DNA of 62,068 nt from a virus: positions 1 through 62,068 of the IMG/VR virus record IMGVR_UViG_3300037222_000092, one strand, 5' to 3'. Below, one piece after another: positions 37,151 through 54,171 of the stretch; the stretch's first letter is position 1; each line of letters starts with the position of its first letter. Below the pieces are notes generated by a model. That model was not told the DNA's origin and searched no databases. It saw only the letters and a list, made by a program, of their open reading frames with translations. Made by a program: the position numbers and the translations under genes.

Positions 37151-37726
37151 CTATTTCGCCTTGATCTTGATCTTGACGGTCTGATCCATCGTGCGTCCTC
37201 CAGACGTGACGATGCGGTTAGTCAGAGAATATCTCTGGCCAATCGTGCCACCAGATAGCCAGATGGCGCTGACAAGATCAGCCTTCGTGTCGCTGTTTTT
37301 TGTTATTCCGGTTGGAATAATCCACGTCGACGATGATATAGTATCGCCCTCTTCATCTAATGCGTTAGACCAATCGACATAATAATCAAGAATGTCATCT
37401 GGATCCTTGAACGGCCATGAGAGAGATCTTCCGAGATTAACGATAACGACACGAGAAGCTGGCATGAGCGCCACCGGAGCTGGAGACTCTGTCGTTCCTG
37501 TAGCTGCCTGGCCAAATGCCGGCACCGTCTCATCTTCTGAAGCGGCGATGATAGCCGCAGCAGCAGCAGTTTGACCAAATTGCGGGACCGTCTCGTTTTC
37601 TAGCGCAGAGATGATAACCGCAGTAGTCGCGGCCTGCGCGAAGTCTGGAATATTTTGTGACGCAGAGGCATTGATGCTGCCACCGCCGCCACCACTGGGT
37701 TGGTTAAATAGTAAAAGCAACGACAT
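37151..37726 (-). CDS. Phage fibre/adaptor-like protein with N-terminal repeats
   Basis: 191 residues. Three degenerate repeats of about 19-20 residues around 'FGQ(T/A)A' at the N-terminus, then a domain with 'PFKDPDDILDYYVDWSNALD' and 'WLSGGTIGQRYSLTNRIVTS'. The latter is the fold of phage fibre-tail adaptor or connector-associated proteins. Confidence 0.7.
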   Translation of the reverse strand: MSLLLLFNQPSGGGGGSINASASQNIPDFAQAATTAVIISALENETVPQFGQTAAAAAIIAASEDETVPAFGQAATGTTESPAPVALMPASRVVIVNLGRSLSWPFKDPDDILDYYVDWSNALDEEGDTISSSTWIIPTGITKNSDTKADLVSAIWLSGGTIGQRYSLTNRIVTSGGRTMDQTVKIKIKAK

Positions 37727-38053: not shown

Positions 38054-38992
38054 TCACCCACCCATCATTGGGATGCCTGAAGATTTCACGGCTACGGTAG
38101 CTCCTGGTCCACCACTGCTACTAAGACCAGCATATCCCAAGCCAGGACCCGTCAGACCCCAGCCAATTATCGTCATATACAACCAATCAATTGGCTTAAG
38201 AGGAACGCTGCTTGATGTTGAGGGTGCAAAGCCCGTACTACCGAAGGCGTTGAAGGCGCTAGCATATGGAGTAGAACCCAAATTGTCGCCAGTATCTCCG
38301 TTAGTGTTGTTGTTCATGCTAACGATGCTGGTCGCGCCGCCATCCGAAGATAGATAGCGAGTGCCAGAGGCCGCGTTATTGCGCGTTCCACTTGCGCTAT
38401 AAGTAAAAATGTCTGCGATGTAAAAGGTGGTATTTGCGCCGGTGTTCATTTCACGGCCAAGAACTTCCGTGAACTCGTGCATCATTACACCATAGAGAGA
38501 ATATCCTCCCGTACATGTTGATCCGTCTACGCTGGTTATATCAAAACTAGCAGAGCTGCTAAATCCGCAATAACCGTCGGTAGCACTGCCAGTCCAAAAG
38601 CCAAGTGCTTTAGTAAGTGCCGAGGCAATCAAAATAGTCTCTGACCAACCAAACGGGTCTGTGGCTGGTAAATTTGTGGATGGATTAAATGCTGAAGTCT
38701 GTAGAGTATTTAACCCTGTAAATCCAGACAACGTAGTTCTGATATTAGCGTATGTTTCCGTATCGACGAAGTACATGCTCTGGCCAATATCGCCAGAGCC
38801 CATCGTTTGATTATCGACTTCGCCGTATCCACAATATATGTTGATCGTTACATCGGTTCCGTCCGAACGAAGCGTGGAAAGAGCGGTCTGAAGATCCGAA
38901 ACAACTCTTGTCCTAATAATATTCCAGGCCGCCATATTAGCATTAGTTGACCAAGATGTATCATCGTGGACTACAAGTGTCAGTGCTCCCAT
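38054..38992 (-). CDS. Zincin-type metalloprotease (NF038122-like)
   Basis: 312 residues. H172-E-F-T-E-V-L-G-R ('GVMMHEFTEVLGRE') is a zinc protease helix of the HExxE/H-VLGR kind, followed by 'FYIADIFTYSASGTRN', where an Asp may be the third ligand. The N-terminal half is mixed alpha/beta; the C-terminus has 'KPIDWLYMTIIGWGLTG'. I associate this layout with the NF038122 metalloprotease family, common in Rhizobiales. No clear signal peptide. In this context it may be virion-bound or exported with its neighbours. Confidence 0.75.
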   Translation of the reverse strand: MGALTLVVHDDTSWSTNANMAAWNIIRTRVVSDLQTALSTLRSDGTDVTINIYCGYGEVDNQTMGSGDIGQSMYFVDTETYANIRTTLSGFTGLNTLQTSAFNPSTNLPATDPFGWSETILIASALTKALGFWTGSATDGYCGFSSSASFDITSVDGSTCTGGYSLYGVMMHEFTEVLGREMNTGANTTFYIADIFTYSASGTRNNAASGTRYLSSDGGATSIVSMNNNTNGDTGDNLGSTPYASAFNAFGSTGFAPSTSSSVPLKPIDWLYMTIIGWGLTGPGLGYAGLSSSGGPGATVAVKSSGIPMMGG

Positions 38993-39186
38993 TATGATAC
39001 ACCATACAGTTGCACGTCACCTGCTAAACCGACGACTTTCTCACCATCTGAAACATCGACTTGGGCCAGTTCTTTCGTGGCATATCGGATCGCGCCAGAG
39101 GGATTATCAGCATATAGGCGAGGAGGACCGATGGAAGACAGAAGCTTCCCGGTCTGCATATTTCGGACGAGAAAAATCATGCCCAT
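38992..39186 (-). CDS. Hypothetical small protein
   Basis: 64 residues, 'GMIFLVRNMQTGKLLSSIGP'. Overlaps its neighbours by one base each. Might be a small virion or chaperone protein; unknown. Confidence 0.6.
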   Translation of the reverse strand: MGMIFLVRNMQTGKLLSSIGPPRLYADNPSGAIRYATKELAQVDVSDGEKVVGLAGDVQLYGVS

Positions 39187-39776
39187 CAGTTAAACGCCGC
39201 GTTGCAATCAAGAACAGGAGATGGAGCTGATGCTCCGGTAGCGGTTGTCGTGGCTGCGGCGCTGATGCCCGTGCCACCGATTGCAACTCCACCAACAGAT
39301 AAGGTAAACCCCCCGCTTCCACCCGGTTCAATGGGAAACGAATATACCGGCGTATCGGTTCCTACCGTCACGCTGCCAAAAGGTTTGCTGAAAACTTGCA
39401 CATAGACTTGCGATGCGCCGGAGTTGCCACACACCAGCATTCCAAGATTTCCAGCCGACGATTTTATGGCCTGTGCGCTATTTGTCAGCGCACTAAGTCT
39501 CGCAGGGCTTAACGCTGTGCTGCTGACTATCCAAGGCGACGTTCCCTGGTTTACGGCAGGGGCCGAAGGAAAGGTCACAAAGAAGGGGTTGCCGGTGACA
39601 CCGAACGCCGCGCCTGAAGCGTCCGCTGGCACCTGAAGCGGGCAAATGCCGGTGCAATTGAACGACTTCGCCGTTTGCGTCGTACCAGCAGCATCCTTGA
39701 ATGTGAAAGTGGTCTGAGCATTAGCAGTACCGATGAGGCCAACGATAAACGTCAGACTTAATAGAAGTTTTTTCAT
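39186..39776 (-). CDS. Secreted beta-rich protein
   Basis: 196 residues from the ATG at 39776. Sec signal 'MKKLLLSLTFIVGLIGTANA'. The mature domain has 'VNQGTSPWIVSS', which recurs in the protein at 48927-49820 ('VNQGTSPWVTNS'), and a C-terminal sandwich ('GSGGFTLSVGGVAIGGTGIS'). Member of the exported set lying inside the head-tail cluster. Confidence 0.68.
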   Translation of the reverse strand: MKKLLLSLTFIVGLIGTANAQTTFTFKDAAGTTQTAKSFNCTGICPLQVPADASGAAFGVTGNPFFVTFPSAPAVNQGTSPWIVSSTALSPARLSALTNSAQAIKSSAGNLGMLVCGNSGASQVYVQVFSKPFGSVTVGTDTPVYSFPIEPGGSGGFTLSVGGVAIGGTGISAAATTTATGASAPSPVLDCNAAFN

Positions 39777-39797
39777 TTGCTGCTTCACGATTAACAT

Positions 39798-42700
39798 TTA
39801 AATGCCCCACTTTGCTGTGAAATAAGCATCCAGAGCAGCGATGTCGGTCGGGCTGAGAACATCATTGACGACGACGAGCTCGGCTATCTTGCCTGGCATA
39901 GCATTTGCCCACGCCGAAGTCTTCGTCGCCACAATGCATCCTGGACTACCAAGAGTTCCGCTACCGGGAGCTACTGGAGTTCCACCGACGCCGTTGACGT
40001 AAGCCGTAAAACCAGTCGTCGGATTTGTCCCATCGTAGATAGACCCGACCCGTATCCATCCACCGGCCGTATAGCTCTGTGTTGCGACTGCGTTGTTGTG
40101 ATAAGCCGAGATCGTAGTAGAATTCTGGAATTGAATGCCAATCATCGAAGTCGGCGTGTAGTAATCGCTCGCATTGACGTAATCTATATCCGCCATCCAA
40201 CTCGCAATACGTGAGCTACTAGGAGAGCCATTCGCCAAAACGACAGCAAACATCGACATCTTGTTCGGGTTGAATATCAACCGGAACGAGTTGGAAACCA
40301 ACCCTTCCACATCAGAGTTAGTGCTAACCTGTACGACTTGTATTCCGTTCAACGAGTCCGTGACAGGCCTGGATTCGTTCTCGCCGCCGTTATAGAGCGT
40401 GTGTCCGTATAAGCTATTATCCGACCATGCCGTCACGTACCAAACACCATGCGTAGGATCGTTTACGGTAAAAAGTCCATTGTCGCCCTTGTACCAGCCG
40501 ATCAGATTTTGCAGTTTCTTCGGCGTCCAGGCTGACGCCGTTGAAGGAACGATCGCCGTGTTGCCGTCCCATGCGTGCAGATACATCATGGTCAGCGTGA
40601 AGGGCATTTCGTAGCCCCAAACGTAGCTCTCGTTTGACTGGATCGCGAACTTGTCTTGCAGCTGCAGTTCCCAGAACGACTGCGCGTAGCACCACGGCAC
40701 CATCTGCTTCGCGTAGCCGTTCGCGCCGTAGTTCGTCGTGCTCACGTTCTGCGCGATGGGAGACAAAGGCCCGTTGAGGTTGCCGACCGGGAATCCAGAG
40801 CTGCTGCAAAAGGCCCAGTACCCTGGGCTACACCAGCCGGCCGGCGTCGGAATTCCAGAATTGTAGGAGTCGTCGTGCGTACAGGCCTCGATGTGGCGCA
40901 GCCCGTGCATGGCGCTGTGTGAACGTCCAACCATGTTCGCACCTTGGCACCATTGAACGACGCTCTGCATCGCCTTTAGGTAATCGGTTCCTGTTGGAGG
41001 ATTTCCGCTCGGTACAGGATTGAGCTTCATCACGTGGACTTTGATAAGCGCGTCCCATCCGTTGAATTGCCAGGGACTTGACGCTCCTCCCCAGCCGCCC
41101 CGGAAGCAATTATCATCCGCCAGAAACTGCGAGGTGTTGACGTTGACGGTCGCGCGGTTATACCAGTACACCGACATATTAATTCCGGTGGTGGTTCCGA
41201 ACAGCGTTTGCATCCTCGCAAGAAGACCTGTCGTATAGGCCCAATTCAACTGATCCACGGTATTGATGTTTGTATTAATTAAGTTCGAAGACATGCCGCC
41301 GTCCGTCAACCACGTCTCGTAAAATGATCCCGCCGCCGACGCCGCGCCGACAAGCTTCACGTAGGAGCAGCAAGCGGAGGTGATCGCAGGCGCGCAGTGA
41401 TTATCAAGCGTGGTCATGTTCGTGGCAAACGTCGGGTCGGTCCAGACCATGTAGGTCTTCATGCCGATCTCACCGTCATAATAGGCGGTTTGGTTGGTCA
41501 GGTTTTGATAGAGGTTATAAGCCCAATTAAAGGCAGCAAGCCCGGAGTTGTAATAAGCCGTATAGGCGGCTGATGACCCGAGCCCGTACTGCGTCAGGAT
41601 ATCGCATAGATTCCACGCTGCCGAAGCGTAAAGCATCGTCGTCCAGTGGTCAGCCGCGTAGAGGAACGATGCTATGGGTCCATGCACGGATGAAGCAAAG
41701 GTCGGGTCGGTACCACAGTAAGTATCCATGGATACTGGCGCGAACGCGGTCTGCTGGGCGAAGTGACCTATGCCGTAGCCACCCGGAACTCGCCCGTCAC
41801 CGATCTGCGCTTGCGGGACGCGGTACGCCTCTAGCGCATAGATGGCCTCGTGTACAATGGCAGGCAAGATGTCAGTTGAACTGTCCCACACGGACGGGTC
41901 ACACATGGCCGAACTGAGCTGCGTCGGAGTCTGGAACGGCGTGACGCGGCCGTTCTTAGGAATATATTTAATCATACCAACGAAAGCGTTAATATTTCCC
42001 ATGTGATCAGATGCGAGGTCGTCGTTGTCGCCCGCATCTTGATGCGCCGGATGGCTACCGACCGCGCGCAGCGCGGGTGAGACAAGTCTCCCAGTCCAGT
42101 TGTAGGATCCACCGAAGTTATAAGGAATAGTAAGCGACTGGTTGTACGCTCCCGTCCCAGACAAATAGTGCGTGGGGTGGTCGCCCATGTTGTCCAGGAC
42201 CACGCCGCTCCCCTCAGATGATGCCATCGAGATAAGTGTTGACCAGTAATTCTCGTAGCCGCCGACGCCGTCGAGCTGGCACGGTCCGCGCTGGTAGGAA
42301 CCGTAGTCGAGAGCCATCCCGAGCCGGTGCTGATAAAGCCCGCGATGATAATGCGCGCATGTCAGCGCGTGCGCGGCCTCATCGATGAGGATCTCATCGC
42401 TTACGCCGTATCCTGGGATGTAGAGTTTATAGCGCCCCGGCGTCGTGAAGGACGAGTAGTCCATGCCGTAGACGTTCGTTCCGGCGCGGTTCGTCGCCTC
42501 CAGGCACTTGAAGGCCATGTTCTCGTAGCCGCCGTGTGGGCCGGGGCCGACGCCCGACGCGGCATGATCCCATGTCCCCGTCGTTAGGGCCGTGGTGTTG
42601 TTAACGGCAACCGATACCTGTGTGGCGTTGATATAGGTGACCGGGAGCGCGATGTTCGTCGCAGGATTCGAACAGCTGTTCACTGGGTCGCTGGTGTTTT

Positions 42701-43757
42701 CGAGATTACCAGCCCCGCTCATGCCGAAGCATCGCATGTGGTCGCCATTGCTGAATCCGTGCCCGCCAGCAAAGGTCAGCGTCGTCGGATTGCCTGTCGT
42801 TGAGACAGAGGTGATCTTCCAGACCTGACTCAAATCAGTCAGATCAAAACCGTGTAAATAGGCACCTCCGCCTGAGTCCACTGTGTCGATCTGATTGTAC
42901 GCCCTTCGAATTGTGATGCCGCCGACGCCACTGATACGCGCGAAGGTGGCGACCGTAGCCAGCGTCACAGCGTCGATGAGATAGAATGTCGCACCATCGC
43001 CCATGCCATAAGCCGCGAAATCGACGACGCCGTTCCCGCGCCCCGGAACGCGGCTGCATAGGTACGCGAGCTTCACCTCATCGTTCGGGCGGTGGCCTCC
43101 GTGCGAGACCTTGATGCCCCCCGCGCGGGTCACCTTGTCGTTGAACGTTAACGTCCTGTCCGGGAACGCCGCCGCGCTATGGCTGATCTTGTATGCCGTG
43201 TTTGCTACCGGAGGCGACGCCAGCTGAATGTAGGCCGTCAGCATACCGCGCTGGATGCTGAAGTTTCCGTCATAGCCGGCGCCGCAGAATTCCGTGCGCG
43301 CGGTGACCGCGCTCACCGTCAAGCCCGCACCACCCACGATCGAGTAGTTGGACGCCTGAGCGAATGCCACCCGATCTATGTAGCGCGGCGGATAGAGGTC
43401 CACAAACCTGACCGCGCTCTCATCTGGCCTTACGACCTGACAGCTTTGGCTGCTAGGGTAAGGAGTATTACCATCACGTGGGTTATTTTTGGTATGGTAT
43501 GCTCCATAAGTGTCGGTGTATGGCGTGGCAGGCGTGAAGATGTTGCCTGACTTGATCGGGTCGTCGCGCTCCATAACGCCAATAACGTCCGGTGTCTCCA
43601 TCCAGACATCATTCTGCAGCGCAGGCGAATAAATTGGCTGGAACGTAGTAGGCGCAGCTCCAGACGGTTTACCATGCCGAAACCAGGCCTCAGCTTCTCT
43701 TGGTGCAAAGGCTAACGCCGTGGCCCCTATTAACAAGTTTCTGCGGGATACGCTCAT
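39798..43757 (-). CDS. Exported GH9-family-like glycoside hydrolase with lectin domain
   Basis: 1319 residues from the ATG at 43757 (ATGA overlap). The Tat leader is 'SRRNLLIGATALAFA', cleaved near 'AEA-W'. A cellulase N-terminal Ig-like strand ('PGRYKLYIPGYGVSDEILID') lies at about 440-460. Next comes the (alpha/alpha)6 catalytic region with D-A-G-D at about 574-577 ('PAHQDAGDNDD', the GH9 base motif), a 'GANMVGRS' block, and a C-terminal acid in 'QSNESYVWGYEMPF' at about 1042. A LamG/concanavalin-like domain (about 1090-1319) closes the protein. GH9 enzymes cut beta-1,4-glucans. Substrate here could be host cellulose or exopolysaccharide. Confidence 0.75.
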   Translation of the reverse strand: MSVSRRNLLIGATALAFAPREAEAWFRHGKPSGAAPTTFQPIYSPALQNDVWMETPDVIGVMERDDPIKSGNIFTPATPYTDTYGAYHTKNNPRDGNTPYPSSQSCQVVRPDESAVRFVDLYPPRYIDRVAFAQASNYSIVGGAGLTVSAVTARTEFCGAGYDGNFSIQRGMLTAYIQLASPPVANTAYKISHSAAAFPDRTLTFNDKVTRAGGIKVSHGGHRPNDEVKLAYLCSRVPGRGNGVVDFAAYGMGDGATFYLIDAVTLATVATFARISGVGGITIRRAYNQIDTVDSGGGAYLHGFDLTDLSQVWKITSVSTTGNPTTLTFAGGHGFSNGDHMRCFGMSGAGNLENTSDPVNSCSNPATNIALPVTYINATQVSVAVNNTTALTTGTWDHAASGVGPGPHGGYENMAFKCLEATNRAGTNVYGMDYSSFTTPGRYKLYIPGYGVSDEILIDEAAHALTCAHYHRGLYQHRLGMALDYGSYQRGPCQLDGVGGYENYWSTLISMASSEGSGVVLDNMGDHPTHYLSGTGAYNQSLTIPYNFGGSYNWTGRLVSPALRAVGSHPAHQDAGDNDDLASDHMGNINAFVGMIKYIPKNGRVTPFQTPTQLSSAMCDPSVWDSSTDILPAIVHEAIYALEAYRVPQAQIGDGRVPGGYGIGHFAQQTAFAPVSMDTYCGTDPTFASSVHGPIASFLYAADHWTTMLYASAAWNLCDILTQYGLGSSAAYTAYYNSGLAAFNWAYNLYQNLTNQTAYYDGEIGMKTYMVWTDPTFATNMTTLDNHCAPAITSACCSYVKLVGAASAAGSFYETWLTDGGMSSNLINTNINTVDQLNWAYTTGLLARMQTLFGTTTGINMSVYWYNRATVNVNTSQFLADDNCFRGGWGGASSPWQFNGWDALIKVHVMKLNPVPSGNPPTGTDYLKAMQSVVQWCQGANMVGRSHSAMHGLRHIEACTHDDSYNSGIPTPAGWCSPGYWAFCSSSGFPVGNLNGPLSPIAQNVSTTNYGANGYAKQMVPWCYAQSFWELQLQDKFAIQSNESYVWGYEMPFTLTMMYLHAWDGNTAIVPSTASAWTPKKLQNLIGWYKGDNGLFTVNDPTHGVWYVTAWSDNSLYGHTLYNGGENESRPVTDSLNGIQVVQVSTNSDVEGLVSNSFRLIFNPNKMSMFAVVLANGSPSSSRIASWMADIDYVNASDYYTPTSMIGIQFQNSTTISAYHNNAVATQSYTAGGWIRVGSIYDGTNPTTGFTAYVNGVGGTPVAPGSGTLGSPGCIVATKTSAWANAMPGKIAELVVVNDVLSPTDIAALDAYFTAKWGI

Positions 43758-44770
43758 GGCAATCCCAACGCTAGGAAGCTGGTATTGCTGTTTACAGAGA
43801 AGTCGAGTGAGCCTTGAGCACCACCGCCAGCAAAAGTTGTTATCGACCGCCAACCCATCTTCATGAGCGCCGTGTATTTGCGCTCGGACAACGGATACAC
43901 AACAGTCTCTCCGGTGTTCGTCGCCGTAGTTCCATCTGAGCCAAAACTATTATCAAGACCACCGCGATGTGAGTTGGCTTTGAAGTGGATGTAGTTGTTG
44001 TGCGGATAAGCGGAATGCAAAATCTTCGGGCCTCCGTCGGCGGCAACTAAAGCGGCCGTTGCCGGATACGCGCCGACCATTGAGACTCCATTCGTAGGGT
44101 ACCCATGAACTCCCACATTCCCGTCTGTAGGATCGACGTAAGCACAATTATCCAGATAATTAAGACTATCAAGATGGGCAGTTATCGCCCCGATGCCTTC
44201 GTCATTGACGATATTAGAGCGATCCGGCGGAGGGCCGACCACCAGGAGCGGTGCCATCGCGGCGGTCGTGTACATCGATCTGATCTCCGCCCAAAGAGAG
44301 ATCATGTGGGCGGTGTATGGAGTCTGGTTACCTTCTAAGCCAGTTTCGTTGTAACCGTGGTTCCAGTCGAAGAACCAAATTCTATTGCCCGCATTTTGTG
44401 CCAGAGCTGCAGCGAGCTTCGCCTCCCAAGGATCAAGACCTACTCTGCTGCTATCGACAGCCCATCCGGCGTTGAAGGCCATCCCAGCTCGGGCGCCGTC
44501 CACTATCAGGATGTTGTACCCGGATGGGATCTTGCCGCGCTGCGATAGCAATCGACACAGCGCCAATGTTGAACCAACGCAATTTGGATTCATGCCATTG
44601 GTTAGGTTGTTGTTTAATGGCTCAGTGGCCAGCTGTATGGTGCCGTTGTCCAGGAAGTCGGCAACCTTGTTGTCGCTAACGTCTATGGACGCGTCGTAGA
44701 AGTCGCCACATCCGGCGTTGCTGTCTCCGGCTAGCCCGACGATGAGGTACGGCGGTGCGGGGACCGTCAT
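43754..44770 (-). CDS. SGNH/GDSL-type esterase
   Basis: 338 residues. The nucleophile block is G15-D16-S17-N18 in 'IVGLAGDSNAG'. The C-terminal His block is 'NYIHFKANSHRGG'; 'WFFDWNHGYNETG' lies between, as in sialate O-acetylesterase-like (CE6/DUF303) enzymes. No signal peptide is visible, unlike its neighbours. It overlaps genes on both sides by 4 bases, so it is made with the GH9-like enzyme and may remove acetyl groups from the same polysaccharide. Confidence 0.75.
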   Translation of the reverse strand: MTVPAPPYLIVGLAGDSNAGCGDFYDASIDVSDNKVADFLDNGTIQLATEPLNNNLTNGMNPNCVGSTLALCRLLSQRGKIPSGYNILIVDGARAGMAFNAGWAVDSSRVGLDPWEAKLAAALAQNAGNRIWFFDWNHGYNETGLEGNQTPYTAHMISLWAEIRSMYTTAAMAPLLVVGPPPDRSNIVNDEGIGAITAHLDSLNYLDNCAYVDPTDGNVGVHGYPTNGVSMVGAYPATAALVAADGGPKILHSAYPHNNYIHFKANSHRGGLDNSFGSDGTTATNTGETVVYPLSERKYTALMKMGWRSITTFAGGGAQGSLDFSVNSNTSFLALGLP

Positions 44771-46290
44771 ATCGTCAGCCCTATCTTGGTTCCCATGTAC
44801 GTTTCGAGATGAGCGAGGTTCGTCGGGCTGATCGATCCTGAGAGCTTGATCACCAGCTCAGCGATGTCGGCCGCAAAGAATAACGAGTTCGAGACAAGGG
44901 AAGCGTTCCCTAAAGCAAAGTTCGCGCTGGTTAGCGTACCGGGAGCACTGTAGGTGTACGTCCCGACTTGAACCCCGTTTACCCGAGCAGTCAGTTTGGT
45001 TCCGTCGTCGATAAAGGTCAGCACCTTCCAAGTGTTGTCGAAGACTCCGGTAGCTAATGTTTGGTTGTTCACAAAAATTCCGCCAGCATCGTTCCTCATG
45101 TTCGCCAGCCACGTGGACGCAGTCGTTACACCAGAGCCGATGGGGTCGAATATCTCCGATCCAGAGGTGACAAACTCCTGAAGCAAAACGCGGCTGGCGG
45201 CCGGGTTTGGCTTGACCGCCATGCAGATTGTTGATCCTGCATGAGATGTCATAGCCGCAGCTAAACCAAGCGGAGTGGCCTTCCCAAGGACATCATTGAT
45301 GCCATCGAAACTGACGCAACGCGGAGAAGTTTTGAACACTGGAACGGGGAAGTTCTGGGTTGATCGCGGAATGATGTCAGAGATCGCAGCGAGATTAAAC
45401 GCGGAACCACTCTTATCGCTCCAGTTAGCTACGTGGTCTAGATTGAAAACAACCTGGCTGGTTCCCGCCAAATACTGCCACATTGTGAATCGATCATCGG
45501 CGGCCAGCCAAAGATTAGGCGCGATGGTGGTAAGGACGTCAAATCCGGTGCTGGGCGATTGCGTCCAACCGCCCGAAGACGCAACGGCAGAGTTGTTCCC
45601 TGCCACGTCCTGATGCACGAAGTAGGCGTGGCGAGTGCCCGATGTGGTCAGTCCGAACGCAGTGGCAGCAAGGCTCGTGCTTGAAACCGGCGTCAATCCA
45701 TTTGCCAAGGCCGCGGTCCCGCCGTCGTTCTGACCGGCAACGACCTGGGCTATGGTTGGTGGCGTTGCGCTTGCGGTCACCACCCAAAATAGAGAGCCGG
45801 GACTGTCGTTCGTCGTCACCGACAAGGCGGCGTTAGTATCGTTGGTACCATTCTGTGCACCAGCGGCACTCGAAAGAGTTGGGGCTATCGTATCGATCAC
45901 TACTGTCAGTGGCGTACCGGCGATACCACCATTAACCGTCGCAGTGAATATGTGAGTGCCGTCGGCGAGCGCCGAAAGTCCCCAACTAAATGCGCCGGCG
46001 TTAGCCTCTCCGGAGGTGATAGTGTGGGTTGAAATTGTTGTGCTGCCGTCGATGAGTGCGACGACATCACCAGATTTTAGAATCTGATCGGTGTTAAGCG
46101 CGATGTTCGGAACATTATTATTGGTAATGTTGTCTGAAGGAGACGATCCGGTGTCTGAGGTTAGCGTCAACAGAGGAAATGATGAAGAAGGAGGCGGCGG
46201 GCTTCCGTGCGGCCACCATGCTTCGGCGTCCTGCGATATTGCTATCGTAGCCGCACCAGCCAATAGAAAGTTTCGTCGAGAGAACTTCAC
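44767..46290 (-). CDS. Exported Ig-like and lectin protein
   Basis: 507 residues. The Tat leader 'KFSRRNFLLAGAATIA' ends at 'DAEA-W'. Two bacterial Ig-like domains follow (about 40-130, 'LIDGSTTISTHTITSGEANA', and 130-245). A LamG/concanavalin-like domain (about 255-507) resembles the C-terminal domain of the GH9-like protein, including 'IAEL(V/I)...SPT(D/N)(I/L)A.L..Y...K.G'. Probably a carbohydrate-binding adhesin or enzyme partner. Confidence 0.72.
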   Translation of the reverse strand: MKFSRRNFLLAGAATIAISQDAEAWWPHGSPPPPSSSFPLLTLTSDTGSSPSDNITNNNVPNIALNTDQILKSGDVVALIDGSTTISTHTITSGEANAGAFSWGLSALADGTHIFTATVNGGIAGTPLTVVIDTIAPTLSSAAGAQNGTNDTNAALSVTTNDSPGSLFWVVTASATPPTIAQVVAGQNDGGTAALANGLTPVSSTSLAATAFGLTTSGTRHAYFVHQDVAGNNSAVASSGGWTQSPSTGFDVLTTIAPNLWLAADDRFTMWQYLAGTSQVVFNLDHVANWSDKSGSAFNLAAISDIIPRSTQNFPVPVFKTSPRCVSFDGINDVLGKATPLGLAAAMTSHAGSTICMAVKPNPAASRVLLQEFVTSGSEIFDPIGSGVTTASTWLANMRNDAGGIFVNNQTLATGVFDNTWKVLTFIDDGTKLTARVNGVQVGTYTYSAPGTLTSANFALGNASLVSNSLFFAADIAELVIKLSGSISPTNLAHLETYMGTKIGLTI

Positions 46291-46293
46291 GTT

Positions 46294-47232
46294 TTAGCAA
46301 CCGATGCAATGGCTTCCGCCTCCGGCTCCGCCGGTTGGCGCGTTAATGGTGATGCCAGTGTTGCTCCCCATGTCGAAGGAGTTGTTCGCGGTCACGGCGG
46401 TCGTGGTGAACGTGGTATGAAAAATTGATGCCCAGCTTATTGTCGCCGCTGTAGTGATTGCCAGATTTACGGCTTGCGCAGCACTGTCGTCAAACTGGAT
46501 CAGTCCGGTCGACGTTCCGATAGCATTTAACGTCCCGATAGTTTGCGTTGCGTTCCCTGTAATAATATATCTGGCTGGCCCGTTTAGATTTAGTGTGGCG
46601 ATGGTGCCGCCAGTATTACCAAAAGACTTAGGCGTACCGGTCGACGAGTTCATCGTAACTATGTTGTAGGTTTTACCGCCGCCGTTCCAGATACTCGATC
46701 CGTTAACACCGTTCCCGCCCCACACGATCGTCGAACTGTTTGCATTAAACGTCAGATTGGTTACGACGCTGAAGTCCCAATTAACGCCGGTCGCCACAGA
46801 TCCGCTCAGGGTCCATGTTCCGTTCCCTAGATTTAGGGTTCTGGTTCCAGTCCCCGTGCCGCTAAACTCATTGGTTAAAGTAATATTCGGGTTGCTCGTC
46901 GCAAAATCCAGCGTTCCTGTGAACGCACCCATGGTGATTGATTGGAACGTGGAATTATTTAGGGTGGAATCTGCCGTGACGGTGCCGCCGCCCGAACTGG
47001 CGTCGAAGGTGGCCTTATCGGTTGTCGCCGACGGTAAGCAAGTACAGGTCGTTCCACCACTGGTGAACGACCAATGTGTAGTGGACGAGTTGTCCCACGT
47101 TCCGGTGCCACCAATCCAATAGCAATTATTAGCCGGCGTTCCGCCTGAGCATGTAGTCGCGTTCGCAGCAGACGGCAGCGAGACGAACGCCAGCGCCAGC
47201 GCAGTGAGAGCGTAGCGAAGGAAAGATTTCAT
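46294..47232 (-). CDS. Secreted repetitive beta-structure protein
   Basis: 312 residues. Sec signal 'KSFLRYALTALALAFVSLPS' ending 'AANA'. The mature part is rich in Thr, Asn, Ser and Gly, with repeated strand-turn units ('NNCYWIGGTGTWDNSSTTHW', 'NLGNGTWTLSGSVATGVNWD'), suggesting a beta-solenoid. Four N-terminal cysteines and a C-terminal 'HCIGC' are noted. Function unknown. Confidence 0.68.
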   Translation of the reverse strand: MKSFLRYALTALALAFVSLPSAANATTCSGGTPANNCYWIGGTGTWDNSSTTHWSFTSGGTTCTCLPSATTDKATFDASSGGGTVTADSTLNNSTFQSITMGAFTGTLDFATSNPNITLTNEFSGTGTGTRTLNLGNGTWTLSGSVATGVNWDFSVVTNLTFNANSSTIVWGGNGVNGSSIWNGGGKTYNIVTMNSSTGTPKSFGNTGGTIATLNLNGPARYIITGNATQTIGTLNAIGTSTGLIQFDDSAAQAVNLAITTAATISWASIFHTTFTTTAVTANNSFDMGSNTGITINAPTGGAGGGSHCIGC

Positions 47233-47246
47233 GGCGCGGTCCTCAC

Positions 47247-47852
47247 TCAGTTTAAGTCAATGTTGACACTCATGGCGCCGGCAGTCGCCGCCGTGGTGTC
47301 GGTGAGTGCGTAGCCAGAAGTCACACAAATTGAGATGCCAGCGGAGAACGCTATACCAACCGTGTAATGAACCGAGATACCGCCAACCGAAGTCGAAGCC
47401 GGGATGGCGTATTGTTTGATGGCGTTCGTTGCGCTGTTGCATCCGTTAAATCCGGTCCCCGCGTTATAGAAACGGATGTAATTGACCGTGGCAGAATTGT
47501 TGGTGACGGTGAACCCGTAGAGGGTGCCAGCACCGTTCTTCACGACTTGATGGTTGTCGCTAGCGGTAGGCTGAAACACCGGGTATGCCGTCGCACCACC
47601 TGACGGTCCCGCCGTCGGCGTTTCAAAGAGCGGATTGGCCGCCGTACCCTTTTCAGCTCCGGTATTGTCAATCAGCACCGTGGCCGAGCAAATATCCGTC
47701 GTTTGACAGACAAATGACCAGATCGGTGCTGCTGTGCCTGGCTGCGGCAGGTTGAACGTCGTTCCTGCCCCGCCGAACACGTACATCGACGGAAAGATCA
47801 GGACCGCGAGAGCGAAAAGCCCGAAGCCCCAATGCTTGAGAAACTGTTTCAT
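47247..47852 (-). CDS. Secreted beta-sandwich protein
   Basis: 201 residues from the ATG at 47852 with GGAAA upstream. Signal or anchor 'FLKHWGFGLFALAVLIFPSM'. The C-terminal domain ('FTVTNNSATVNYIRFYNAGT', 'VGIAFSAGISICVTSGYALT') is a fold shared with the 39186 protein. Expected to form part of the exported set. Confidence 0.65.
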   Translation of the reverse strand: MKQFLKHWGFGLFALAVLIFPSMYVFGGAGTTFNLPQPGTAAPIWSFVCQTTDICSATVLIDNTGAEKGTAANPLFETPTAGPSGGATAYPVFQPTASDNHQVVKNGAGTLYGFTVTNNSATVNYIRFYNAGTGFNGCNSATNAIKQYAIPASTSVGGISVHYTVGIAFSAGISICVTSGYALTDTTAATAGAMSVNIDLN

Positions 47853-47868
47853 GGTGTGTTTTCCTTTG

Positions 47869-48084
47869 TCAGAACTGCATGGGAGACGGGATGAACGCGA
47901 CTGTGTCCGAGCAAGCCTGCGGTATTCCCGGCATAATCGCGCAGTTGCCTTGGGTGACTGGAGGAGTAACTCCACCACTGATGCTGATGTTGTAGTTGGA
48001 GTCGCGCGACTGCCAATACGTCCATGCACCCGTCGCAACGAACCATAAGCAAGTTGCGAGCAGCGCAGTGCTCAGGCTTCTCAT
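47869..48084 (-). CDS. Small secreted protein
   Basis: 71 residues with a leader 'RSLSTALLATCLWFVATGAW' and two cysteines in the mature part ('NCAIMPGIPQACSD'). Overlaps the next upstream stop by 4 bases. Unknown. Confidence 0.6.
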   Translation of the reverse strand: MRSLSTALLATCLWFVATGAWTYWQSRDSNYNISISGGVTPPVTQGNCAIMPGIPQACSDTVAFIPSPMQF

Positions 48085-48803
48085 AGTTCATACCCGAACG
48101 AATTTACATCTACCGCCGAGGCGGTTCCGTCAGCCGTAGTCGTGATGGTGATCGGAGTGTTCACCGCGATGGCCGGGATACAGGGGTTGAAACTTCGCGA
48201 GAACGTGGATCCTGCTGCGGTTGATGAGAACTGATAAGTTGCCGAGCTTGTAATCAAACCTGCAACTACTATCGGTCCCACCGTTGCCGTTCCTCCGAGA
48301 GCCGACACGTCGAAACCGCAGATGTAGGTCGTCTTGGCACTCGTTCCGGCGAGCGTGCCAACGACCGCGCCGGTTGTACCTGTGCTGTTGCCCGTGATCG
48401 GCGTAGCACCACCAGGGTATTGCCCGGTTAGGTAGCCTATGGGATTGGTCCCTGCAGGAATGGCCGCAGCGCTGTTTGTAACAAGCGTCGCCAAAGAAGA
48501 ATTTGCTGTTGTTTGATTGGCAGAAGTTGCCGCACCCGTCGGCAGTGAAATAGTACCGCTGACGTTCGTTACATTCCATGTCCCTGACTGTGCCACCAGG
48601 AACGGCGTCATGGCTGATATGCCCTGCACTGTCAGAACATTTGACTTCGCCGTTCCCGCCGTCCCAATAAGGTTGTCCAACGTCGAGACAGTGCCAGATC
48701 CTGCCGTTGGCACGCCGCTGGTGATTGTGACCGTGCTGACATTCTGCGCACAAGCCAGACTCGGAGCCAGCGCGATAAGTAGGGCTAGGATTATCTTGCG
48801 CAT
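48081..48803 (-). CDS. Secreted protein, paralogue of 48927 gene product
   Basis: 240 residues. Sec signal 'RKIILALLIALAPSLACAQN'. The C-terminal half ('YPGGATPITGNSTGTTGAVV', 'SAKTTYICGFDVSALGG', 'FNPCIPAIAVNTPITI') aligns by eye with the neighbouring protein at 48927-49820, indicating tandem duplication. Two cysteines are conserved between the copies. Confidence 0.7.
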   Translation of the reverse strand: MRKIILALLIALAPSLACAQNVSTVTITSGVPTAGSGTVSTLDNLIGTAGTAKSNVLTVQGISAMTPFLVAQSGTWNVTNVSGTISLPTGAATSANQTTANSSLATLVTNSAAAIPAGTNPIGYLTGQYPGGATPITGNSTGTTGAVVGTLAGTSAKTTYICGFDVSALGGTATVGPIVVAGLITSSATYQFSSTAAGSTFSRSFNPCIPAIAVNTPITITTTADGTASAVDVNSFGYEL

Positions 48804-48804
48804 G

Positions 48805-48930
48805 TTAAAATCCTAAAAAGTAGTAGGTCGGATGACCTGATGGGGGCGGACTGCCTCCGGTGCCGTGCCAGAACGCAAGTGCTGGAGCGGTTAGAGCAAG
48901 CGCAGCTATGAGTACGAGGACAAGTTTCAC
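48805..48930 (-). CDS. 41-residue exported peptide
   Basis: GTG start at 48930 overlapping the upstream stop (GTGA), missed by ATG-only calling in the longer ORF. A hydrophobic leader ('KLVLVLIAALALTAPALA') is followed by 'FWHGTGGSPPPSG', which resembles the post-leader 'W(F/W)xHG...P' motif of the GH9-like and Ig/lectin proteins. A mature peptide of only about 22 residues would be released. Confidence 0.55.
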   Translation of the reverse strand: MKLVLVLIAALALTAPALAFWHGTGGSPPPSGHPTYYFLGF

Positions 48931-49820
48931 AGTTGATATCCCCAGCCCTTCGACGATACATTGCCACCGGCACCTGGCGTTCCAGAGACAATGGCAATGC
49001 CAGTGTTGGTCGCACTTGCCGGGATGCACGGCGAGAATATTTGTTCGTCAACCCCGATGCCTGAAGCAAGAGGGGCAACCCACATGATCGAACTCATCGT
49101 TGCTGTGATGACGCCAGTGATCGTGTTGGTGACGGTCGCGGCTGCGGTCGCGTTAGCGCGGATCGAGTAGCCACAGATGTACGTGGTCTTTCCAACGGTG
49201 CCAGCGAGCGTTGCGGTTGTTGCCCCCGTGGTTCCGGTAGCTGACGCGGTAATCGGAACGGCCCCAGCCGGGTACTGACTAGTAGAGGTTGAATTTGTAA
49301 CCCACGGAGACGTGCCCTGATTGACTGTGCCGATAACCTTGGTCGTCTCAGCATTCAGTATTGCCGGTTGTGGTTGCCCCCCGCTAACGCCCTGCACCGT
49401 CACAATGGCGCCGGTCGGAGTTCCCGCCGTTGCCGTACCTGGGTTAAGCCCAACAACAAGTGTTGTGTCAGTCGCCGCAGGCAAGGTTGATGCCGCCTTG
49501 ACAGTCGCGACGTTGGCGCCGGCGCTGTCGACTATACCGACGCCGCCGATCGAGACCGTCGGGGCTTGGGTAGGAATTGCGCCAGTGATGCCAGCCAAGA
49601 TGGCGGCAGAATTTGCCTCGGTGACTGTGTTCGTTACAAACGCATTAACCCCAGGCACCTTCACCGCGCCGGGTGATGTGCCGTAGTTTGCCATCGCTCC
49701 TAAGATTGGGCTGGCTCCAGCGCCCCACTGTTTCACATTGACATTGCCAGTCTGTGCCCATGCAACGCTAGGCGCGAACAGCAGCGCAAGGACAACAAAC
49801 CTGATGGTATTTTTCATCAT
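48927..49820 (-). CDS. Secreted protein with paralogous C-terminal domain
   Basis: 297 residues from the ATG at 49820; GTG starts at 49826 or 49829 are possible. Sec signal 'IRFVVLALLFAPSVAWA'. A long N-terminal beta-rich part leads to 'VNQGTSPWVTNSTSTSQYPA' and a C-terminal domain shared with the 48081 product ('VGKTTYICGYSIRANATA', 'FSPCIPASATNTGIAI'). Probably an outer-surface or virion decoration protein. Confidence 0.68.
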   Translation of the reverse strand: MMKNTIRFVVLALLFAPSVAWAQTGNVNVKQWGAGASPILGAMANYGTSPGAVKVPGVNAFVTNTVTEANSAAILAGITGAIPTQAPTVSIGGVGIVDSAGANVATVKAASTLPAATDTTLVVGLNPGTATAGTPTGAIVTVQGVSGGQPQPAILNAETTKVIGTVNQGTSPWVTNSTSTSQYPAGAVPITASATGTTGATTATLAGTVGKTTYICGYSIRANATAAATVTNTITGVITATMSSIMWVAPLASGIGVDEQIFSPCIPASATNTGIAIVSGTPGAGGNVSSKGWGYQL

Positions 49821-49822
49821 GA

Positions 49823-50242
49823 TCACCACTTGATCGCTGTGAATTTGTGCCCGGTCGTGGCGCCGACTATGCTGACGGAATGGAATGGAAGCATGCCGTG
49901 TGGCGTCGTATAGCTACCCCCGCCAGCAGCGACGTTGATACTCGCTTGTCCATTCGCCAGCGCAGTAGTTGATAATGAAATCCATAAATCTTCGGTCGCG
50001 TCTGGATTGTGAACCGTGAATCCGTTTGTCGGTGTTGCGGATGCAAATAAATCCTGCGCGGTTCCGCCAGTAGTAATCGTTCCTGATCCATCCGATCCAG
50101 AGGCAGTCGAAATTATTTCGGCACCCGCGCTGGTATTTGGCACAAAGCGCTGAAGTTGCTTTGTTACCGCATCCTCAGTAATCGAATTGGTTGCTATATC
50201 AGCGCCGGAGCCCGGAGTGACCGGTACATTAGAAGTTGTCAT
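49823..50242 (-). CDS. Putative virion-associated protein
   Basis: 139 residues from the ATG at 50242. No signal peptide. 'LFASATPTNGFTVHNPDATE' and 'GGGSYTTPHGMLPFHSVSIV' are typical of small phage beta-sandwich proteins that decorate heads or fibres. First of the block after the gene at 50247. Confidence 0.62.
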   Translation of the reverse strand: MTTSNVPVTPGSGADIATNSITEDAVTKQLQRFVPNTSAGAEIISTASGSDGSGTITTGGTAQDLFASATPTNGFTVHNPDATEDLWISLSTTALANGQASINVAAGGGSYTTPHGMLPFHSVSIVGATTGHKFTAIKW

Positions 50243-50246
50243 CGGA

Positions 50247-50654
50247 TTAGGCCCCCGGCGCTGTCTTGGTGAATCCGTTGACGTTGATGGTCTGGCCGAT
50301 TGCAATCGATGGATTATCGACCGTCAGATCGCCACCACTTCCTGTGATAGTAACTGCCCCCTGTTCGTGACAAGTTGCCCCAGTCGAATCATAAATTCGG
50401 TAATGTCCGATCGTGCCTGCGGCGAGACCTGTCGTCACCAGGGATAAATTATTAAATACCTTTGCTCCCGCTGACGCAGCAGCTGCCCAATCTGATGCCA
50501 TAGCATCCTCAGCGAGTAACGTGCCCGCTTCGGCTGCGGCACAATTTGCAGGCTGTGCCCCTGTGTAAAATCGCAATTTCGCAGAAGGGCCGATCGCGGT
50601 TTCCCACGCATCGAGCATCCCGTTGCGAACGGTCGTGGAATTTTGAACGGTCAT
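50247..50654 (-). CDS. Conserved phage structural protein
   Basis: 135 residues. 'VRNGMLDAWETAIGPSAKLR' with 'FYTGAQPANCAAAEAGTLLA' is a pattern common in phage structural cassettes after the connector gene. Beta-rich C-terminus. Exact role unknown, probably virion-associated. Confidence 0.7.
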   Translation of the reverse strand: MTVQNSTTVRNGMLDAWETAIGPSAKLRFYTGAQPANCAAAEAGTLLAEDAMASDWAAAASAGAKVFNNLSLVTTGLAAGTIGHYRIYDSTGATCHEQGAVTITGSGGDLTVDNPSIAIGQTINVNGFTKTAPGA

Positions 50655-50729: not shown

Positions 50730-51461
50730 TTACATCCAAACGCGATAACTCGTAAGAAGTGCTTGCACGGCCCCATTGATCGCGGCTTCCGCGCCACCGC
50801 CCATAGTCCAGCCGCGGTCTAGAATTCCCGGTACGGATTCCCGGCTAAGAAATAGATTTTGCTGTGTAAGAGATCGGAGGTGGCTGACCTGCAGCGCTAT
50901 TGCTGTTCGAATTGTTTCCGGAACATCCGTTCCATCGTCTCCGTAACCCGCAATAAACTGAACTATGACAGAGCCAGGAGTCAGCGCCGTAGACGGCCAA
51001 CTCGCACCCGTAACCAAAGACAAATCGGACGGCGCGTCCGCATTAACGATGTAGGTAGCCGGATCAAATGTCTGCGGGTTTCCATCAACGTCGAGATAAG
51101 TGACGCTCACGACCTCCTGCAGAGGCGGCAATGGAATTGCAATGCCGTGGCGTTTTTTCGACGTGTAGGGATACATCCCCCACAATTCCTGTGGGTGCGG
51201 ATACCAGACTTCCTGCGGATAAAAGCCCTTTTCCTGGTAATAATAATTTGACGTTGGAAAGCGATCGAGCACCAAGTTCCAGGTTTGCGTATTCAATGCC
51301 CGGCCGAGCCAACCATCTGGCCCATCAATCATCTGCCGTGACGCGCTGACGAGTGCATCGACCACGGTATCTGTTAGCTCAGTACCAATGTTAAGCCGCG
51401 CCCTCACTTCCGCAGTGGTCAATGGCTCGACATCCGGCGGTTCGACGAGAACGAGCGACAT
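50730..51461 (-). CDS. Head-tail connector (gp6-like)
   Basis: 243 residues. The N-terminal 'LTTAEVRARLNIGTELTDTV' and the helix bundle ending 'IRTAIALQVSHLRSLTQQNL' are the signature of HK97 gp6-like connectors that sit under the portal. An insertion rich in Tyr (about 75-105) is unusual in this family. Confidence 0.85.
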   Translation of the reverse strand: MSLVLVEPPDVEPLTTAEVRARLNIGTELTDTVVDALVSASRQMIDGPDGWLGRALNTQTWNLVLDRFPTSNYYYQEKGFYPQEVWYPHPQELWGMYPYTSKKRHGIAIPLPPLQEVVSVTYLDVDGNPQTFDPATYIVNADAPSDLSLVTGASWPSTALTPGSVIVQFIAGYGDDGTDVPETIRTAIALQVSHLRSLTQQNLFLSRESVPGILDRGWTMGGGAEAAINGAVQALLTSYRVWM

Positions 51462-51464
51462 GGA

Positions 51465-52172
51465 TCACCGCCTCCGGAATGCGAATGAACCGATGTCCTC
51501 GCGACCGATCTTGGTCTCGATGTCGCTGTGCTCTATGCAATCAAAGCCCAGTGAATTCATCACCGTAATCAAACCTGGTGCGGTAAAATACCAAACGTGT
51601 TCGTCTTTACGAAAATGCTTCGAGCCAAGCACATGATCGCAGTCATTAAAGATCGGCAGCGAGACAAAAACCCACTCTCTCACATTATCCAATAGGTGAC
51701 GGAAATCATGGATATGCTCGAGCACGTCCCATAGACTAATCGCATCAACCGGCACGAGATTCGGATCAATCAGCAGATTCTTGTCCGCCAGCCACTTCAT
51801 CGCCTTCGGACAAACGTCCCAACCGTAAGTCTTGCGACGCCCCTGGTTGCGCAATTCAACGAAGGCGCCGGATCCGATTCCGACATCGACCAGCGTTCCA
51901 CTGAAATGGCGTGCGACAAAATCAACACGCGCCCGCATCAGAGTGCGGCCGATCTCCGAATTGGCCTGGTCGGCAAAGCGGTCGAAATAGGCGGTGTTGT
52001 AGGGTGCGATTCCGGCCTCGACCGGATAGTAACCGATCCCGATATCCGGCCACCATGTCAGCCGGCGCGCTGCGATGATGTGGCGTAAAGACCGGCTCGG
52101 TTCACGAAGCCCATCCACTGTTCCGACAAATTCGTTATTTGCTTGTCGCAAAGGTGCTGCATATCCGTGCAT
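51465..52172 (-). CDS. Class I SAM-dependent methyltransferase
   Basis: 235 residues. SAM motif I is 'LVDVGIGSGAF', followed by 'DAISLWDVLEHIHDFRHLLD' (motif IV region of COG2227-type enzymes). Start ATG at 52172 has AAAGG 8 bases upstream but makes a 115-base overlap with the glycosyltransferase gene; a GTG at 52118 is an alternative. Paired with a glycosyltransferase, it probably methylates a sugar on a virion protein or host surface glycan. Small-molecule or sugar target is inferred. Confidence 0.82.
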   Translation of the reverse strand: MHGYAAPLRQANNEFVGTVDGLREPSRSLRHIIAARRLTWWPDIGIGYYPVEAGIAPYNTAYFDRFADQANSEIGRTLMRARVDFVARHFSGTLVDVGIGSGAFVELRNQGRRKTYGWDVCPKAMKWLADKNLLIDPNLVPVDAISLWDVLEHIHDFRHLLDNVREWVFVSLPIFNDCDHVLGSKHFRKDEHVWYFTAPGLITVMNSLGFDCIEHSDIETKIGREDIGSFAFRRR

Positions 52173-52951
52173 CGACAGAACCTTTCGGGCATTGCAAATC
52201 CGATGCGCGATAAATTCATGCGCGGATCGGTTATTTTCTCTGGTGCGTTATGGCCGCCATGACCGCCGAGCACGATGAACGCCTTGGTCTTGAGTGCGAT
52301 CGCGGCCGGCACGATCCAACCGACGCCGCCGACGACCACGTCCGCATCGCGAATGAGCGCGAGCAACTGGCGGACGTCGAATTCTCCGTTGACGAAAGCG
52401 GCATTGTGCGGCGGCAACTCGCCAGCGAGCCATTCCTCGCCAACCTTTAAATGAGCTACCACCACGACAGCAAAGCCACGGCTTTTCAGATCGGATGCAA
52501 TGCTCGCAATATATTCCGGTCGGGGACTTCTTGCGTCGTTCTGCCATTCCGTTCGCACAGTGACGGGGCGAATAACCGCGAGTTTTGCCTTACCAGAATC
52601 AACCGGGCTCTTGCCTAATGGCGGCAAATCCCATTTCGGCTTCGTTCCATTATATGGCAGCGATTGCTCGATCGCAGTGATAACAGAACCGTTGGCGAGT
52701 TGCATGCCTTTGTAACCGACATGCACGGTACTGATACCATACGGAGTAGGCGACCATCGGCCCGCTGGCTGCAGCAAGACATTTTGCGTTTGCGTGCGCA
52801 GTCGGCGGTCACCCTGCACAAAACGTAACGGCAAATCCTCGTAGAGTTCCGGCCACGGCGTATCTAGCCAAACGTCATGATATTGGCAGAGTGCACTAAT
52901 GAACGGCCGCGAATATATATTATCGCCAAGACCCCAGCATCCGTGGATCAA
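52058..52951 (-). CDS. Glycosyltransferase, GT9-like
   Basis: 297 residues with a TTG start overlapping the upstream stop. The N-terminal 'HGCWGLGDNIYSRPFISALC' resembles GT-B enzymes of the heptosyltransferase type ('GlGD.i...P'). The C-terminal Rossmann half has 'GFAVVVVAHLKVGEEWLAGE' and 'DADVVVGGVGWIVPAAIALK', where the nucleotide sugar binds. It lies among capsid genes with a methyltransferase. Confidence 0.78.
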   Translation of the reverse strand: MIHGCWGLGDNIYSRPFISALCQYHDVWLDTPWPELYEDLPLRFVQGDRRLRTQTQNVLLQPAGRWSPTPYGISTVHVGYKGMQLANGSVITAIEQSLPYNGTKPKWDLPPLGKSPVDSGKAKLAVIRPVTVRTEWQNDARSPRPEYIASIASDLKSRGFAVVVVAHLKVGEEWLAGELPPHNAAFVNGEFDVRQLLALIRDADVVVGGVGWIVPAAIALKTKAFIVLGGHGGHNAPEKITDPRMNLSRIGFAMPERFCRCTDMQHLCDKQITNLSEQWMGFVNRAGLYATSSQRAG

Positions 52952-53217: not shown

Positions 53218-54171
53218 CTAGAGAAGATGAAGGCGATGATCGCGCTTGGCGTTGTTGTCTTCGGCCCACCATGGCCGAATATTTGGCAATCCCCATGCAA
53301 ATTTGAAATCAGGATGGGAGGGTCCGTCAAAATTCCACATAGCGAGTGGCAGAATGTGTTCAACCTCCCAGTCGCCGTAGTTTTCGAACGTCATCCCTTC
53401 TAAAAATTGGCGCTCTAAGTGGAGCATCAATTCCTTCAGGGAATAGCCGACTAAATTCTCCCAATGGGCGCCGGCCTTGGATCCCCTCAGGCTGCGCGCG
53501 ATCGCGCTGCCAATCCTTGAATTAAGTCGCAGCTGCGGGCTGCTGGCCATCCGTCGCGATTGGTTCTTGCGCGCCTGCTCCGTCCGTTCTTCAACAACAC
53601 ATATTGTACAGAATTTCTGTAAAGCACCCTTCCGAACAATATCCCTATTGCATTTCTTACAACTAATAATGTCTCCCAAATTTGCCGTCGGTCGACCCTG
53701 CCGCTTACGGTAAATGTCGCGGTCAATTTTCAATTGGGATTGGCGGCGGCATTCAGGACAATATTTTTGTAGGCCACCGTTGCGCACGATCTGAGCCGGA
53801 CAGGTTTCACATTTTATAAAACTGCCAAGCGGGACAACCACGCCATGTGCCGCCCGTTGATGTGCCTGTTTATAGGCTTTCTTTTCGATCGCGCGGCAAT
53901 CAGAACATAATTTTTGAGCGCCCGAGCCGCGGATTACGTCAGCACCACATTTACACTGAAAGACATCGCCGCGCGTTGTGCCGCCGCGTTCGATAGTTTT
54001 ACGCTTATGCCAAGCGTTGCTAATCCGGTTGGATTGCTCTCTCTTGCACTTCGCGCAAATTTTCTGGGAATTGCTTGTCCGAACGACTGTCTTTTCACAG
54101 TCCCGGCAAACGAACCGGCGTATGGCTTGCGAAGTCGCGGCGGATTCGGCATCTTTTCGTTCAGGCATCAT
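53218..54171 (-). CDS. HNH endonuclease with four zinc-ribbon repeats (homing type)
   Basis: 317 residues. Four tandem Cys4 ribbons fill about 18-205, each near 'C..C...(I/V)VR.(G/S)..QK.C..C'. The C-terminal domain has 'GYSLKELMLHLERQFLEGMT', 'NYGDWEVEHILPLAMWNF' (HNH His) and 'WGLPNIRPWWAEDNNAKRDH'. It lies directly after the capsid gene on the same strand and is AT-richer than its neighbours. The array plus HNH suggests a free-standing homing endonuclease that cuts intron-less capsid regions of related phages; target is inferred. Confidence 0.82.
   Translation of the reverse strand: MMPERKDAESAATSQAIRRFVCRDCEKTVVRTSNSQKICAKCKREQSNRISNAWHKRKTIERGGTTRGDVFQCKCGADVIRGSGAQKLCSDCRAIEKKAYKQAHQRAAHGVVVPLGSFIKCETCPAQIVRNGGLQKYCPECRRQSQLKIDRDIYRKRQGRPTANLGDIISCKKCNRDIVRKGALQKFCTICVVEERTEQARKNQSRRMASSPQLRLNSRIGSAIARSLRGSKAGAHWENLVGYSLKELMLHLERQFLEGMTFENYGDWEVEHILPLAMWNFDGPSHPDFKFAWGLPNIRPWWAEDNNAKRDHRLHLL

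Follow-up and report, generated by a model that had tools for sequence, protein, structure and literature searches.

The window analysed here, a stretch of 62,068 nucleotides of viral DNA (IMG/VR record IMGVR_UViG_3300037222_000092, positions 1 to 62,068), carries a minus-strand head cluster of the HK97/D3 type. Within this cluster, 11 co-directional minus-strand genes (B11 to B1) fill positions 38054-50654, between a phrog_442 head-tail adaptor and the genes for a gp77-like fibre-tail adaptor, neck, terminator and tube (37151-34097). An earlier note on this DNA had placed such a block inside the head-tail cluster, and this position is borne out; it had also counted at least eight Sec or twin-arginine (Tat) leaders among the products and proposed signal-peptide prediction as a check. 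Run with a rule-based scorer written for this analysis (charged n-region, hydrophobic core and AXA-type site, all starts tried, score cut-off 4.7, Tat calls by an SRRxFL-type motif), the prediction recognised leaders of both kinds, but their number is seven of 11: Sec leaders in B2, B6, B7, B8 and B9 and Tat leaders in B3 and B5 (SRRNLL and SRRNFL, respectively). Internal ATG starts are required for the leaders of B7 and B3. The scorer found no leader in the metalloprotease (38054), the SGNH-like protein (43754) or the adaptor-proximal genes 49823 and 50247, nor in any of 26 other head-tail and packaging products, compared with 7/12 in the block (Fisher p=6e-5 with this rule-based scorer). Read directly, all seven leaders lack a lipobox ([LVI][ASTVI][GAS]C at the cleavage position).

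Among the small exported proteins, two families stand out. The C-terminal parts of B9 and B8 represent a domain of about 115 aa, here called the knob, that is present in 84 IMG/VR contigs, of which 80 were kept; 38 clusters (85% identity) were full enough for leader judgement. A leader is found in 37 of these 38 clusters, the remaining one (L161) lying just under threshold, against a background of 6% for same-strand genes more than 4 kb away and 2% for opposite-strand genes, and each of the two cysteines is kept in 39 of 40 aligned members. B7 belongs to an unrelated second knob family, in which all 13 viral loci from IMG/VR combine a leader with cysteines at identical positions, counting one (L194) whose leader score of 4.23 is under the cut-off used elsewhere. 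The B9/B8 knob profile gave 28 pattern matches in 84,980 species genomes and no relative among them, B9, B7 and a family member from L142 matched none of 50,697 phage records under the E-values applied, and comparison of the knob with PDB sequences and PHROGs returned only a chance match to LuxQ and nothing beyond chance, respectively. Both families thus appear to be virus-only among the collections searched. The AlphaFold2 model of the B9 knob is an eight-stranded jelly roll with a predicted local distance difference test (pLDDT) score of 96. Its best structural match is P26059B_0041 of a Curvibacter phage (template modelling (TM) score 0.90, 31% identity), a single case whose gene was identified by length (126 aa) and sequence. 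This protein shares the knob fold, and an SGNH-like protein is encoded three genes away, but it is encoded near lysis genes and lacks a leader and both cysteines. A weak neighbour in the PDB is the Bd2133 fibre tip (E=5e-3, TM about 0.5, using a monomer model).

The leaders go along with a distinct cysteine content. In 38 representative loci, the mature forms of exported proteins contain 1.64 cysteines per 100 aa versus 0.89 in others, and the cysteine count is even in 68/80 exported versus 102/248 non-exported proteins; with the knob family removed, there are still 44 even and 9 odd counts among the exported proteins (p=6e-7), though p-values of these comparisons are inflated by relatedness. 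The simplest reading is that the leaders function and that the proteins fold in an oxidising compartment, and export of the block products seems well supported because even divergent relatives retain the leaders, and do so together with paired cysteines. If these were instead ordinary virion proteins made in the cytoplasm, with hydrophobic N-termini unused as leaders, their position among head-neck genes and the leaderless knob homologue in a T7-like phage would be easily understood, but the retention of leaders with paired cysteines in both families (37/38 and 13/13), the two canonical Tat motifs and the excess of even cysteine counts make this explanation very improbable.

To place the block among related phages, 40 loci with related capsids and at least 6 kb of downstream sequence were compared, with at least two leader genes counted as a block. 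No block is present in 39 of these 40 same-family loci, and the exception, L013 (capsid 82% identical), has three different leader genes straight after the adaptor, including one whose leader is of the twin-arginine type. In L051 (capsid 77% and adaptor 74% identical), which lacks the block, the adaptor-to-neck distance is 0.8 kb versus 14 kb in the window. Because the block is mostly absent in same-family phages while other leader genes occupy the same site in L013, the site between head-tail adaptor and neck genes is, judging from these sequence comparisons, an insertion hot spot. The upstream flanks of relatives' cassettes match several terminase, portal and adaptor families and their downstream flanks match head and tail families (including major head), so the cassette seems to be common to phages with different head and packaging genes. 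Our cautiously preferred reading, which we consider somewhat probable, is that the block is a late, exported glycan-handling cassette at this hot spot whose products are secreted freely. Since relatives of its small members in about 100 other viral contigs almost all have a leader and the conserved cysteine pair, such phages seem to produce and export a sugar-binding and sugar-cutting kit of their own.

Table. Features of the window (Cys, number of cysteines; a slash marks the end of the leader)
Feature	Position	Strand	Cys	Description	Match
TerL	58007-59662	-		named from position and sequence	
Portal	56561	-		named from position and sequence	
Protease	55600	-		named from position and sequence	
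Major capsid	54307	-			46% to phage D3
Head-tail adaptor	50730..51461	-		upstream edge of insertion site	phrog_442 E=9e-24
B11	50247..50654	-		small virion structural protein, no leader	phrog_3758 E=3e-26
B10	49823..50305	-		no leader	phrog_22789 (unknown function)
B9	48927..49829	-	2	Sec leader MKNTIRFVVLALLFAPSVAWA/QT from ATG at 49817; QGTSPWV-type stem; C-terminal knob with conserved Cys pair	
B9 knob domain	48930..49274	-		eight-stranded jelly roll; conserved C34 and C83 (alignment A3)	
B8	48081..48803	-	2	Sec leader MRKIILALLIALAPSLACA/QN	B9 knob family (42-43%)
B7	47247..47852	-	4	Sec leader from internal ATG MKQFLKHWGFGLFALAVLIFPSMYVFGGA/G; second knob family, conserved Cys pair	
B6	46294..47232	-	6	Sec leader ..PSAANA/TTC; beta-rich protein with CYWIGGTGTWD repeats	
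B5	44767..46290	-	2	Tat leader SRRNFLLAG..DAEA/WWPHGSP; Ig module and LamG/ConA-like module	Big_13
B5 mature N-terminal tag	46201..46218	-		WWPHGS	
B4	43754..44770	-		SGNH-like by GDSN motif only, no leader; 4-nt overlaps with B5 and B3	
B3	39798..43757	-	21	1319 aa from ATG at 43757 (4-nt overlap with B4 stop); Tat leader SRRNLLIGA..EAEA/WFRHGKP; sub-threshold C-terminal LamG-like module	CelD_N-like fragment
B3 mature N-terminal tag	43668..43685	-		WFRHGK	
B2	39186..39797	-	4	Sec leader MKKLLLSLTFIVGLIGTANA/QT	
B1	38054..38992	-		metalloprotease (HEFTEVLGRE), no leader	NF038122 family
gp77-like fibre-tail adaptor	37151..37726	-		downstream edge of block	PF23148 E=7e-25; PDB 8jou_D E=9e-5
Neck	36117	-			
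Terminator	35633	-			
Tube	34097	-			
Tape measure	30855	-		named from position and sequence	
Tail fibre	25235	-			

A role in glycan handling is plausible because LamG, Ig and jelly-roll knob domains occur in this block and GH5, BNR, CBM5/12 and GDSL domains in the exported genes of relatives. The lectin and Ig modules claimed earlier are found in B5, with Pfam matches above cut-off for Big_13 (31.4 bits) and Laminin_G_3 (32.3 bits, cut-off 27.6). The predicted enzymes fared less well: the supposed GH9-like glycosidase, B3, gives only a CelD_N fragment below threshold (19.1 vs 24.6 bits in Pfam), and we rejected its assignment to GH9 given that the core matched nothing in Pfam at E<=5 or in the PDB (phmmer) at E<=10 and that a single-sequence AlphaFold2 model was unusable (pLDDT 31). 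The SGNH esterase corresponds to B4, an SGNH-like protein by its GDSN motif that matches neither an SGNH profile nor any other family. The metalloprotease, in turn, is indeed a member of the NF038122 family (B1, 85.4 bits at a curated cut-off of 80), but it has no export leader; loss of a leader through a frameshift was rejected, with no leader-like sequence in any upstream frame. A Tat-leader protein at L005:13605-14495 is weakly related to leaderless B1 (24% over 120 aa). Scans of viral contigs with B3, B6 and neck genes returned no relative; exported B6 relatives are present in L003 and L010, the latter encoding two tandem exported B6-like proteins with a near-identical C-terminal tail (L010:11466-13636; CILGGWLLWRDMPEHLNDNFPAWLEK). 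Of the secreted polysaccharide-degrading set suggested earlier, export is thus well supported by conserved leaders and paired cysteines, whereas degradation was overstated because no glycosidase fold was confirmed in the window.

In relatives, leader genes concentrate near knob genes: 37 of 186 neighbours within 4 kb have a leader, against 12 of 199 genes farther away (p=5e-5). Most of the 62 exported neighbours have no family, and matches to GH5, GDSL lipase, BNR, CBM5/12, He_PIG, glycine-rich and S74 chaperone domains turned up once each. At L161:12740-14770, a leader-bearing protein of 677 aa has a C-terminus resembling the S74 endosialidase chaperone and may be the source of the one S74 match counted. 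A second leader gene often overlaps the knob gene and starts within 130 nt in 15/34 cases, and its mature N-terminus is typically (F/Y/G)WQSRDSNYN. The DNA pattern for WQSRDSNYN occurs in 14 viral contigs (two of which, L172 and L176, carry copies of the same short frame of 75 codons), always at or a few residues from the predicted cleavage site and always in a gene downstream of a knob gene (for L169, the knob was taken from the same contig as L131), while the bodies behind it form several groups without mutual match. The sole match of this pattern in genome contigs, a 21-aa non-leader frame in SAR86, was judged to be chance. A second tag, W[FWTP]xHG, opens large exported proteins in relatives as well as B3 (WFRHGKP) and B5 (WWPHGSP). 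Together, the two tags lie near the cleavage site in 36/272 leader proteins versus 0.2% of internal windows, a difference whose p-value is only descriptive because the regular expression was fitted after examples had been seen.

A conserved mature N-terminus that constantly accompanies a knob protein resembles an anchor, and the main rival explanation is therefore that exported appendages fold and form disulfides in the periplasm and then dock on the head or neck of virions released at lysis via the knob/stem protein and the N-terminal tag, so that the particles would gain periplasm-matured adhesins and depolymerases. Modular tail fibres and depolymerases similarly fuse a short conserved N-terminal anchor to interchangeable bodies, but the conserved segment of the tagged proteins sits directly behind a cleavable leader. 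Apart from this resemblance of the (F)WQSRDSNYN proteins with their unrelated bodies, docking would fit the location of the block in the head-neck module adjoining the gp77-like fibre-tail adaptor (37151; PF23148 at 87.9 bits, cut-off 27) and the exported neighbours with an S74 fibre chaperone or a phage-tip-type glycine-rich domain. However, the binding partner of the tag could instead be the knob protein or the cell surface, the window encodes no WQSRDSNYN protein, and we know of no precedent for tailed-phage appendages loaded from the periplasm, so that docking is a distinct possibility but hardly a probable one. Equally tentative is the idea of a virus-specific two-component export system made up of a knob/stem protein locked by disulfides and a partner that uses its mature N-terminal tag ((F)WQSRDSNYN or WxxHG) to dock exchangeable bodies of enzyme or lectin type. 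The two would be assembled outside the cytoplasm and attach to released virions or to the surface of the dying cell.

The exported adhesins might also coat the host during infection or lysogeny, masking its surface or acting in lysogenic conversion. The model for this would be Llp of phage T5, a receptor-blocking lipoprotein encoded beside the receptor-binding protein and, like the block's products, an exported phage-encoded protein. Leaders, glycan-type folds and a phage integrase family match at 13976-15139 (phrog_1), which suggests a temperate phage, are compatible with such a role. Unlike Llp, however, the seven leader proteins lack a lipobox and are encoded in a head-neck insert; there is no promoter excess, the 13 matches being close to the chance expectation of 11.8, and terminator matches are likewise at chance level; the B9 knob is found in none of the 84,980 species genomes, unlike typical prophage conversion genes; and large Tat proteins would be unusual for this function. 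We consider masking or conversion unlikely for these reasons. The production in the lysogen that had been suggested earlier draws no support from these promoter matches either, despite the integrase. A metabolic role, with secreted hydrolases feeding the infected cell from environmental polymers, has been proposed for soil viral glycoside hydrolases, some with proven activity (PMC6786970, PMC9485262), and polysaccharide-active genes in soil viral contigs have a counterpart in the exported GH5-type protein of our relative L001/L090. Yet the soil viral enzymes are known as single metabolic genes, whereas the block is a multi-gene exported cassette composed mostly of small, non-enzymatic, virus-specific knob proteins and N-terminally tagged proteins, with no glycoside hydrolase confirmed in the window. 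The absence of the knob family from the cellular genomes scanned argues against a borrowed host pathway, and we find auxiliary metabolism quite unlikely.

If the block is, as we prefer, a freely secreted glycan-handling cassette, its position and orientation suggest that the proteins would be made alongside structural proteins late in infection, pass to the periplasm and then form disulfides. B7, B8 and B9 would be jelly-roll adhesins, as probably would B2 and B6, and may act, together with the Tat-exported lectin/enzyme proteins B3 and B5, on glycans of the producing cell's envelope, capsule or matrix. At lysis, this could result in a looser matrix and less re-adsorption of progeny to debris. 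Several points weigh against this view. Neither B3 nor B4 has support for an enzyme activity, with GH9 failing every test run; lateness is deduced from orientation and position, and the signal prediction is rule-based; and the constant pair of knob and tag genes in relatives speaks more for docking than for free secretion. Moreover, cytoplasmic enzymes would be freed at lysis anyway, so that export would have no evident purpose unless disulfides, action before lysis or toxicity in the cytoplasm play a part.

Other features of these genomes lie outside the block. Between the capsid and adaptor genes of the window, a methyltransferase (phrog_6564) is encoded together with a conserved phrog_6804 gene that looks glycosyltransferase-like by eye (51465-52951), and both are found again at the same place in many relatives. 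The gene at 53218-54171 encodes an HNH-type protein whose N-terminus carries four zinc-ribbon-like CxxC repeats in tandem, two phrog_67-type DNA methyltransferases lie on opposite strands (3069-4451 and 11843-12874), and an esterase/lipase-like gene and another Sec-leader protein (22328-22918) are located close to the endolysin genes (21475-22918). In L003 (3383-6004), the terminase large subunit is broken by an intein-like segment with the look of a Hint/homing endonuclease (approximately GPGKAQPHDTRIYTP to VTHNTTVEAW).

The closest cellular parallel may be the mosaic adhesive trimer (MAT) fibres of Bdellovibrio, exported fibre-like adhesins with leaders (PMC10769870). By description, they share with the block's products a signal peptide on a fibre-like protein, and the Bd2133 tip is weakly matched by the B9 knob. 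However, MAT fibres belong to a cellular predator, reach up to about 1000 aa and have a conserved beta-rich domain of about 130 aa directly after the leader (PMC10769870), whereas the cassette proteins are virus-encoded, smaller and part of a putative late phage operon. The literature searched, with thin coverage of subscription journals and preprints, contained no account of such a cassette.

Late phage proteins are assumed to be cytoplasmic until lysis. Two unrelated families that keep a leader and paired cysteines, are encoded among head genes in phages whose terminase and head families differ, and are accompanied by proteins tagged at their mature N-terminus would instead constitute a set of exported phage adhesins that is for the most part unannotated. 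Their tags provide a simple handle to find further members, and the set offers a direct test of phage action on the host matrix before lysis versus virion appendages finished outside the cytoplasm. Should the two-component system be real, tailed phages would be dressed with periplasm-matured appendages.
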